This document shows, in pieces, positions 6,800 to 53,823 of a stretch of 64,000 nt of DNA (positions within the stretch are counted from its first letter, which is position 1; the number at the start of each line of letters is the position of its first letter). This DNA comes from Candidatus Poribacteria bacterium (lineage in GTDB: Bacteria > Poribacteria > WGA-4E > WGA-3G). Location of the stretch: positions 6,554 through 70,553 of the forward strand of contig JAGWBU010000021.1 of the NCBI GenBank assembly GCA_021295735.1. Reading direction: 5' to 3'. The translations under genes and the position numbers were made by a program. The notes beneath the pieces were generated by a model. That model did no database searches. It was not told where the DNA came from and was given only the letters and a program-made list of their open reading frames with translations.

Positions 6800-6888
6800 T
6801 ACCAAATTAACGAGAATTGTATTTTTTTCATTGCCGATGGTAAGGGCGGGCACAGAGACCCGCCCCTACGATTTAGGGTAATTTGGTA
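6800..6888. mobile_element. Family A MITE-like element, copy 1
   Basis: 89 bp bounded by TACCAAATTA and its complement TAATTTGGTA, with TAA directly repeated outside (6797-6799 and 6889-6891). A central hairpin GGGCGGG / CCCGCCC occupies about 6845-6867. It has no coding capacity. It lies exactly between the stop codon of the MNT-HEPN gene and the next gene. Without it and one TAA, those genes would be separated by only a few bases, so the insertion splits an apparent operon. Confidence 0.85.
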
Positions 6889-37226: not shown

Positions 37227-37242
37227 TAATTGGGTAACTATG

Positions 37243-37385
37243 GTAGATTTTAGAATTAATTGAATCTGTGGACAAGCGAGGTTAGGAAACCTCGCCTACC
37301 GGTGAATGTCCGAGGCGCAATGAATTGCGCGACTACAAACGGCGTAAATTCTAAGAAGATGTTCACTTGATTTTATAATTCACTA
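37243..37385. mobile_element. Family B-like element upstream of tRNA-Pro
   Basis: The right end ...TTCACTA is followed by TA (37386-37387). The left end is degenerate (TAGATTTTAGAATTAATTG, then GTGGACA). Inside are two hairpin modules in series: GCGAGGTT / AACCTCGC (about 37275-37295) and the palindrome GCGCAATGAATTGCGC (37315-37330). The element ends 12 bp before the tRNA. Confidence 0.6.
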
Positions 37386-51711: not shown

Positions 51712-52365
51712 ATGAAATACGTTATCTGTGCAACACCCCGCACACGCAGCACCGTTTTATGTGACTTGTTGGTTTCATCTGATGTAGCAGGGTATCCGAG
51801 AGAATACCACGAAGGACACGAATCGCTAAAAGGCTTGGACATAACCGATCCAGCAACATATCAAAAATACGTATCCGTTTCCACTTCACCGAATGGGGTT
51901 TGTGGTATACAGGTCATGTCCACAGAAAAGCATATCGTTGAAAAGTTTATAGATTTTAAAAACGTAAAATGCATCTGGCTCCGCAGAGAGAACAAAATAA
52001 AACAAGCCATCTCCCTTTTGAAAGCGCACAAACGCAATTGCTTTTACCAGACAGATAAAACCCGGAAAAATGACGATCTCAATCAAATCAAAATTACGCG
52101 TGATGAGATCGCATACAGCACATTTGAATTGACTGCACAGGATATGTCGTGGGGATATTATTTTGAAGAAAACAAGATTATTCCCCTAATAATTTGGTAT
52201 AAAGACTTAGAAACAGAAACACAGCAGAAAGAGACCCTCAAGAAAGTCTTAGATTTTCTTGATATCTACGATACGCCGAATGAACCTAAAGTTTGGGTTA
52301 CACGTCAGGATGCTAAATGGGATGAGGACTTATATAAGCAAATCGTGGATCCCTATCGGCTATGA
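51712..52365 (+). CDS. Stf0-type sulfotransferase
   Basis: 217 residues. The 5'-phosphosulfate binding loop is C-A-T-P-R-T-R-S-T-V-L-C near the N-terminus and a 3'-phosphate-binding segment is at KCIWLRRENKIKQAIS. The order matches Stf0 (trehalose 2-sulfotransferase) relatives, which are widespread in bacteria, and the acceptor cannot be predicted. The upstream ribosome site is weak (TTGGAAAAAAATAA). It stands alone. Confidence 0.82.
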   Translation: MKYVICATPRTRSTVLCDLLVSSDVAGYPREYHEGHESLKGLDITDPATYQKYVSVSTSPNGVCGIQVMSTEKHIVEKFIDFKNVKCIWLRRENKIKQAISLLKAHKRNCFYQTDKTRKNDDLNQIKITRDEIAYSTFELTAQDMSWGYYFEENKIIPLIIWYKDLETETQQKETLKKVLDFLDIYDTPNEPKVWVTRQDAKWDEDLYKQIVDPYRL

Positions 52366-52506: not shown

Positions 52507-53060
52507 TTATGGTGTAATATTCAGATTTATTTCTTTATGCCTTCTATAGAATTCTATGAAGTTTTTATCAAAGTTTATATCAATATTGTAGTTCATGAGA
52601 ATATCAAGTCCGATAACTCCATCTATAAACATGTTATCAAAATGTTCATTACATAGAACTTTATGATCTCTATATTTTGATCCAGCAAAATCAATCTGTT
52701 TAACTGTAATTATCGATAATGGTTGTGTTCCGCCAGCAGTATCAAAATCTTGGGGGATACCATGTTGTAGTAGGTCATATCCTAATTCTATTGCTAAATT
52801 TTCGCTAATTCCACTTATTGTTGCACCAGTATCCAAAACAAGTTTTATGTCTCTATAATTAGAATCAGGAATTCCATGTATCTTATACCAGATTCATTTG
52901 ATTCATCGTCTTCACATACCGCTCCGCTGGAGCGGAAGACAGAAAACTCCACGTGCTATAAACACTGGAAAAACAAGACGGATTCCGTTAATTTGGTATT
53001 ACATCTAATCGTGATCTGCCCATTTCTAAATTCTATACGTGTTTTGTAATCAGGGACCAA
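52507..53060 (-). pseudogene. Retropepsin-like aspartic protease gene split by a MITE
   Basis: The 3' part reads ...IPDSNYRDIKLVLDTGATIS, with the D-T-G-A catalytic motif, and GVIGLDILMNY, ending at 52507. Upstream the frame stops within the family A element at 52886-52998. On the far side of the element, TTG 53060 opens a 20-codon frame (LVPDYKTRIEFRNGQITIRC). Deleting the element plus one TTA/TAA copy joins C to KIHGIPDSN in frame, giving about 145 residues. The pieces were thus one gene. The TTG start has AAGGAC upstream. Such single-domain retropepsins act as dimers. The upstream small gene at 53129 may be its operon partner. Confidence 0.8.
52886..52998. mobile_element. Family A MITE-like element inside the retropepsin gene
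   Basis: 113 bp, from TACCAGATTCATTTGATTC to the complement of TACCAAATTAACGGAATC, flanked by direct TTA at 52883-52885 and 52999-53001. The interior has CCGCTCC / GGAGCGG hairpin arms (about 52919-52935) in place of the GGGCGGG hairpin. TSD and terminal bases match the copy at 6800-6888. Confidence 0.85.
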
Positions 53061-53080: not shown

Positions 53081-53120
53081 CAAACCCTTATTGCACTCTT
53101 TATGTTGCAACAAGGGTTTG
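53081..53120. terminator. Hairpin between the small minus-strand gene and the split protease gene
   Basis: CAAACCCTTATTGCA and TGCAACAAGGGTTTG pair with one mismatch around a 10-base loop. It lies just after the stop of the 53129 gene and before the protease start, so it may attenuate the second gene. Confidence 0.45.
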
Positions 53121-53128
53121 TGCTTGAA

Positions 53129-53395
53129 TTATTTAGAGTTCTTCGGTTTATATGAAGTTATCCTATGTGTCCGTTTATATTTTGGATTTGTCCATTCACC
53201 TGTGAACCTTATAGCTGCACCACCAATAAATTCTTTTGAAACTTTATGAATATCATCACGTGACGGACTATGGACTTGAACGATACCAGATATAAGTTCA
53301 TCCGTTTCCTCACAGATAGCAGGTTCAATGATGAACAACCATTGGTTAGGATATTTCTCTACCATTTCCTGTGTTGTCAAACGCTCACGTGCCAT
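53129..53395 (-). CDS. Small hypothetical protein
   Basis: 88 residues. It begins MARERLTTQEMVEKYPNQWL and has a beta-rich middle (FIIEPAICEETDELISGIV, QVHSPSRDDI) and a basic Lys-rich C-terminus. AGGAG (GACTCAGTAA context) precedes the ATG. It is on the same strand and 68 bp upstream of the restored retropepsin gene, so the two probably formed an operon. Function unknown. Confidence 0.6.
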   Translation of the reverse strand: MARERLTTQEMVEKYPNQWLFIIEPAICEETDELISGIVQVHSPSRDDIHKVSKEFIGGAAIRFTGEWTNPKYKRTHRITSYKPKNSK

Positions 53396-53598
53396 TTTAC
53401 TGAGTCTCCTATTGTGAGTTTTGTGATTATTTTTTGTCCGATTATGGACAATAGTGTTACACTTTAATATTATGTCTTATTCTGTCCGTAGAGTCAAACC
53501 TTTTTCGGGAATGCACCGTGCTTGCATTTCTTGTCTCGTTATGGTAAACTCCGTTATTGAAGACATCAATAGGTCCGGTTTTATTTGGAGAATTACAA

Positions 53599-53823
53599 AT
53601 GCCAGTAAATTGGAGAAATTACATTGTTAGCACGCCAGAAATATTACCAGGTAAACCGCTTATTAAAGCCACGAGGATTCCTGTCCGTCTCATTCTTGGT
53701 TACTTTGCTGCGGGGTGGACCACAGACGAAATCATTGTTGCCTTTCCAGATCTCAAAACAACGCAGATTTATGCTTGCCTTGATTATGCACGCGACTTAG
53801 CAGAATTTGAGGAAGTTACATAA
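53599..53823 (+). CDS. DUF433 protein, putative antitoxin
   Basis: 74 residues. Typical DUF433: WRNYIVSTPEILPGKPLIKA, TRIPVRLILGYFAAGWT, and an HTH-like end LKTTQIYACLDYA. TTGGAGAA precedes the ATG at 53599; an upstream ATG at 53557 in the same frame lacks one. DUF433 proteins are usually paired with a DUF5615 PIN-like toxin, and a damaged one follows with a 1-bp overlap. Confidence 0.82.
   Translation: MPVNWRNYIVSTPEILPGKPLIKATRIPVRLILGYFAAGWTTDEIIVAFPDLKTTQIYACLDYARDLAEFEEVT

Follow-up and report, generated by a model that had tools for sequence, protein, structure and literature searches.

The window analysed here, a stretch of 64,000 nucleotides of a Candidatus Poribacteria contig, carries two small neighbouring genes on the minus strand, an intact upstream gene (hereafter the partner) and a putative protease gene interrupted by a MITE. 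The features of the locus are the following.

52507–52885, minus strand: 3' part of the protease gene, residues 21–145, with the putative catalytic DTGA and the GLDIL motif, stop codon at 52507–52509 (from the frame, profile matches and homologues)
52883–52885, no strand: left TTA of the target-site duplication, present as a single copy in four empty-site orthologues
52886–52998, no strand: MITE of 113 bp, non-coding, with imperfect terminal inverted repeats TACCA...TGGTA (from its copies, inverted ends and fold)
52919–52935, no strand: inner palindrome of the MITE, CCGCTCCGCTGGAGCGG, also found free-standing in the same and in related genomes
52999–53001, no strand: right TTA of the target-site duplication, likewise single in the four empty-site orthologues
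53002–53060, minus strand: 5' part of the protease gene, TTG start, residues 1–20 (MVPDYKTRIEFRNGQITIRC), with the SD-like AAGAAGGA just upstream (from the frame and homologues)
53081–53120, no strand: inverted repeat with 15-nt arms between partner and protease
53129–53395, minus strand: partner gene, 88 aa, the upstream gene of the module, intact, with homologues at 31 loci

Beyond these, two plus-strand neighbours match Stf0 sulphotransferase (51712–52365; PF09037) and DUF433 (53557–53823; PF04255).

As found, the upstream frame of the protease gene starts with a TTG codon, runs for 20 codons and then meets a stop inside the element (ITIRCNTKLTESVLFFQCL followed by the stop); past the element, the downstream frame reads KIHGIPDSNYRDIKLVLDTGATISG and continues to the stop at 52507–52509. 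The initial annotation had claimed that removal of the element rejoins the 20-codon frame exactly to the frame containing DTGA, ITIRC running on into KIHGIPDSN. We removed the element and one TTA (116 bp) and indeed recovered a frame of 145 codons on the minus strand, from the TTG ending at 53060 to the stop, in which QITIRC is followed by KIHGIPDSN and, further on, by LDTGA. No second lesion was detected in this joined frame.

The joined 145-residue protein was searched against 98 genomes. We observed orthologues in four genomes of the same genus: G007 (88% identity over residues 1–145, stop-free), G010 (79%, residues 1–126), G014 (91%, residues 1–78) and G017 (81%, residues 1–57). In the DNA of all four, exactly the element and one TAA (the coding-strand form of TTA) are missing; a single TAA is present and the frame is continuous across the junction. 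Since four sister sites lack precisely these bases, an insertion with a 3-bp duplication is supported, and the borders proposed in the initial annotation, a 113-bp element at 52886–52998 between TTA direct repeats, turn out to be right to the base, in the sequence of the window as in the empty sites. The expected homologue continuous from C20 into KIHG exists in G007, intact over its whole length; alignments starting only at the DTG part are not the pattern seen, as 28 of the 31 homologous loci align on both sides of the C20/K21 junction. That the disruption is real is borne out by the recurrence of the element elsewhere in the genome together with the four empty sites. We therefore explain the site by a MITE insertion with a 3-bp duplication that inactivated the protease gene, a reading to which we give a probability of about 0.95.

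Positions 52883–53001 read TTA, TACCAGATTCATTTGATTC...CGTTAATTTGGTA, TTA. The termini of the element in the window are TACCAGATTC on the left and AATTTGGTA on the right, and its terminal inverted repeats can be written TACCARATT...AATTTGGTA. Within its 113 bp, transposase coding capacity is absent; as a single strand it folds better than 200 of 200 shuffled sequences (z = -3.7), and a search of Rfam gave no match above the gathering score. We then used the element to search its own genome (G000), a 5.07-Mb draft in 230 contigs, and obtained 29 matches, with about 11 full-length copies on different contigs plus fragments; five of the other copies show 93% identity end to end with that of the window. 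Copy length is 100–138 bp in this genome and 150 bp in G035, and the variation is chiefly that between one and two copies of the unit with the palindrome CCGCTCCGCTGGAGCGG. When the full copies were aligned, identical 3-bp flanks (TTA, TAA or TCA) were found in 10 of the 11 copies of the own genome, the exceptional one being flanked by TAA and TTA, and likewise around the 150-bp copy of G035. Because the flanks match in this way, the limits of the element are fixed as TACCA...TGGTA and the duplication type as TNA across the whole family. The competing reading of a TA duplication, with an element CCA...TGG, was ruled out by a copy flanked on both sides by TCA and by the single TAA of the empty sites. 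The 113-bp element is a MITE, non-autonomous, multicopy and dispersed.

The TACCA...TGGTA end motif is part of a wider set: a relaxed pattern of the ends was counted 130 times in the own genome, where the reversed control gave 15, and the corresponding counts for the complete genome G010 were 49 and 0. At 6800–6888 the window holds another MITE, of 89 bp, with TACCAAATT ends, TAA on both sides and a different inner sequence. Many genomes of the order also contain the palindromic unit ACATACCGCTCCGCTGGAGCGGAAGA on its own, as a REP-like repeat, and in some cases its two arms carry changes that match each other (CACTCCGCTGGAGTG at L018; loci L018, L020, L022 and L023). One further copy of the MITE (G000:C99:17724-17840; L005, L031) lies about 75 bp past the 3' end of a further retropepsin paralogue in this genome; a systematic association of the MITE with protease genes was not seen at the other protease loci checked.

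Concerning the mechanism, a DDE transposase acting in trans would have inserted the MITE, by cut-and-paste or by copy insertion, into the site TTA (coding strand TAA) that lies between protease codons 20 and 21, with duplication of 3 bp. The element brings in stop codons and a frame shift, so that translation from the native start ends inside it and the catalytic part is severed from the start and the N-terminal segment. IS5 elements duplicate TNA and PIF/Harbinger elements duplicate TWA, both of 3 bp; the duplications of the present family are TTA, TAA and TCA. The TNA duplication, taken as the sole basis, suggests a transposase of the IS5/PIF-Harbinger-like type. The transposase families searched were DDE_Tnp_1, DDE_Tnp_1_2, DUF4096 and DDE_Tnp_4. 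The 3-bp TNA or TWA duplication is thus shared with IS5-type and PIF/Harbinger-type transposons and their MITEs, but none of the PF13586, PF01609 (DDE_Tnp_1), PF13340 and PF13359 elements in the searched genomes, which are partly drafts, has TACCA ends, and no autonomous transposon that would move the MITE was detected among them. For this reason, the MITE family is not filed under any IS family.

Two candidate sources were rejected. Three partial copies (L178, L180 and L181), considered as the ends of longer elements, enclose no transposase, and a 344-aa frame on contig C37 beside a TACCAAATT end is a separate transposase gene next to another gap. Larger elements of the own genome with related ends are interrupted by runs of N. 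Throughout the assembly, N runs or contig ends also interrupt a larger repeat that has TACCACATTAACTTGATTC and TACCAAATTAACGGGATTTATC as its ends (G000; L122-L125, L128 and L131). In a draft of 230 contigs, the insertion may also be one that is not fixed in the population.

The joined protein matches PF13650 (Asp_protease_2) with 45.3 bits (cut-off 24.3; E = 1.5e-11) and PF13975 (gag-asp_proteas) with 42.7 bits (cut-off 28.2), and the profile of the protease family matches the structure 5c9d, a Rickettsia protease (E = 6e-7), and Ddi1 (E = 3e-5). DTGA occupies residues 38–41 and GVIGLDIL lies near residues 109–116. In a comparison of 12 members, D38, T39, G40, G109 and G112 are invariant, as is I16 in the N-terminal segment. 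By its sequence, the gene is thus predicted to encode a retropepsin-like aspartic protease of clan AA. DTGA and membership of clan AA are shared with APRc of Rickettsia (PDB 5c9b and 5c9d, listed as ApRick protease) and RloA of Pseudomonas (PMC12239564). An AlphaFold2 model of the intact G007 orthologue was of low confidence (pLDDT 43.6).

The protease gene comes second in a conserved module of two genes. At 31 of 31 homologous poribacterial loci (the window and L031-L062), a partner of 75–88 aa lies upstream of it, and at most of these the stop of the partner and the start of the protease overlap by 1 nt. The small partner beside the protease sets this arrangement apart from the rlo operon of Pseudomonas (PMC12239564). 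At the family level the partner has no Pfam match, one of 15 members hitting DUF5678 at 0.028. Against the PADLOC models of PDC-M08, a phage-defence candidate, the protease matches PDC-M08B (best value 6e-9 for this protein and 3.5e-12 in the family), and the partner matches no PADLOC model; for these reasons a role of the module in defence is only a lead, and a hit to a retropepsin model is in itself no sign of a defence function. In a search of a plasmid collection, both protease and partner were without a match.

Each of the five genomes of the genus with an orthologue has an intact partner, but G007 alone has an intact protease. In the complete genome G010 the protease gene is interrupted close to its 3' end by 103 bp (L035, 1869–1971), a repeat of about 40 copies there with TATAGT ends and with a related form in the window's genome; G014 has lost the middle and the 3' part, and G017 the 3' part. 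In G044, a relative at the family level, the protease is short too. MITEs of at least two families have therefore interrupted this gene, in two species, and the protease gene has been broken independently several times in the genus, the disruption in the window being one case. At 37239–37301 (G000:C59:43792-43854) the window matches in part, with 83% identity, the 103-bp MITE family of G010 that has TATAGT ends.

We infer that loss of the protease is tolerated. The element may even have hit a gene already dispensable or decaying, in which case it would mark relaxed selection and would not be the cause of the functional loss; we give this slightly less than an even chance. Such a course would agree with the orthologue being otherwise broken in three of four sister genomes (G010, G014 and G017) and short in G044, and with a dN/dS near 1 between G007 and G014, a value from the first 76 codons with few changes. 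However, the dN/dS of the joined frame of the window was 0.43 versus G007, 0.18 versus G010, 0.13 versus G014 and 0.18 versus G017. Given this range (0.13–0.43), the frame was under purifying selection before the insertion, and the insertion is probably recent, since the copy in the window bears no second lesion. This intactness, taken with the values of 0.13–0.18 against G010, G014 and G017, points to constraint until recently, and the more distant members of the protease family are mostly intact. The pattern in these five genomes may reflect mere dispensability or selection for loss. A bolder proposal, which we consider unlikely, is that the pair forms an undescribed module, for instance of a conflict, defence or toxin-antitoxin-like kind, in which it is repeatedly advantageous to lose the protease and keep the partner, with MITEs of different families as recurrent breakers.

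It could also be supposed that the gene is altered rather than dead, an N-terminally shortened catalytic protein being made from an internal TTG. Indeed, an open frame of 109 codons starts from the TTG at 52836 (52507–52836) and holds both DTGA and GLDIL. Against this, about 36 residues would be missing, including the conserved segment with the invariant I16, and promoter-like sites in the region are not above background; we regard such a product as improbable. Under the insertional inactivation that we prefer, the protein product is predicted to be inactive, because translation passes through only 20 native residues before it enters the element, and a product from an internal start would lack the conserved N-terminal segment; the gene would have been inactivated recently in this genome, with the upstream partner left intact. 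An assembly artefact of a multicopy repeat, which might arise in a metagenome-type draft where the ends of other repeats lie at contig edges, is very improbable here, as the two flanks are correctly ordered parts of one gene that overlap by exactly 3 bp and the copy in the window has its own variants (CGGATTCCG, CAGATTC) with respect to the other copies.

Inactivation of genes by MITEs is well documented in prokaryotes (PMC10969869). Like the element described here, Chunjie of Geobacter uraniireducens, Correia of Neisseria and MITEAba12, found in hns of Acinetobacter baumannii, are short, non-coding and multicopy with inverted ends, and they share with it a target duplication of fixed length and insertion within a coding frame, which varies between strains or species (PMC10969869); the present family differs from them by its sequence (TACCA...TGGTA), its TNA duplication and its poribacterial host. 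The MITE BrickBuilt from Porphyromonas gingivalis (PMC4596501) is likewise reported to carry internal repeats of variable number, comparable to the copies of 138–150 bp with two palindromic units; that element has a minisatellite, whereas the present one has a palindromic unit, single or doubled, which is also found free-standing. Our literature search found no paper linking Poribacteria with these MITEs.

The breaking of a gene by a MITE is an ordinary kind of event, and the module with its recurrent decay is the more open part. For Poribacteria, a phylum in which mobile elements have been little annotated, an insertion exact to the base, with four natural empty sites, defines a MITE family by its ends and its TNA duplication. 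It also serves as a warning, in that gene callers will report at this site a false gene of 109 aa with a TTG start. Finally, it draws attention to a conserved module of two genes from which the protease is repeatedly lost within one genus.
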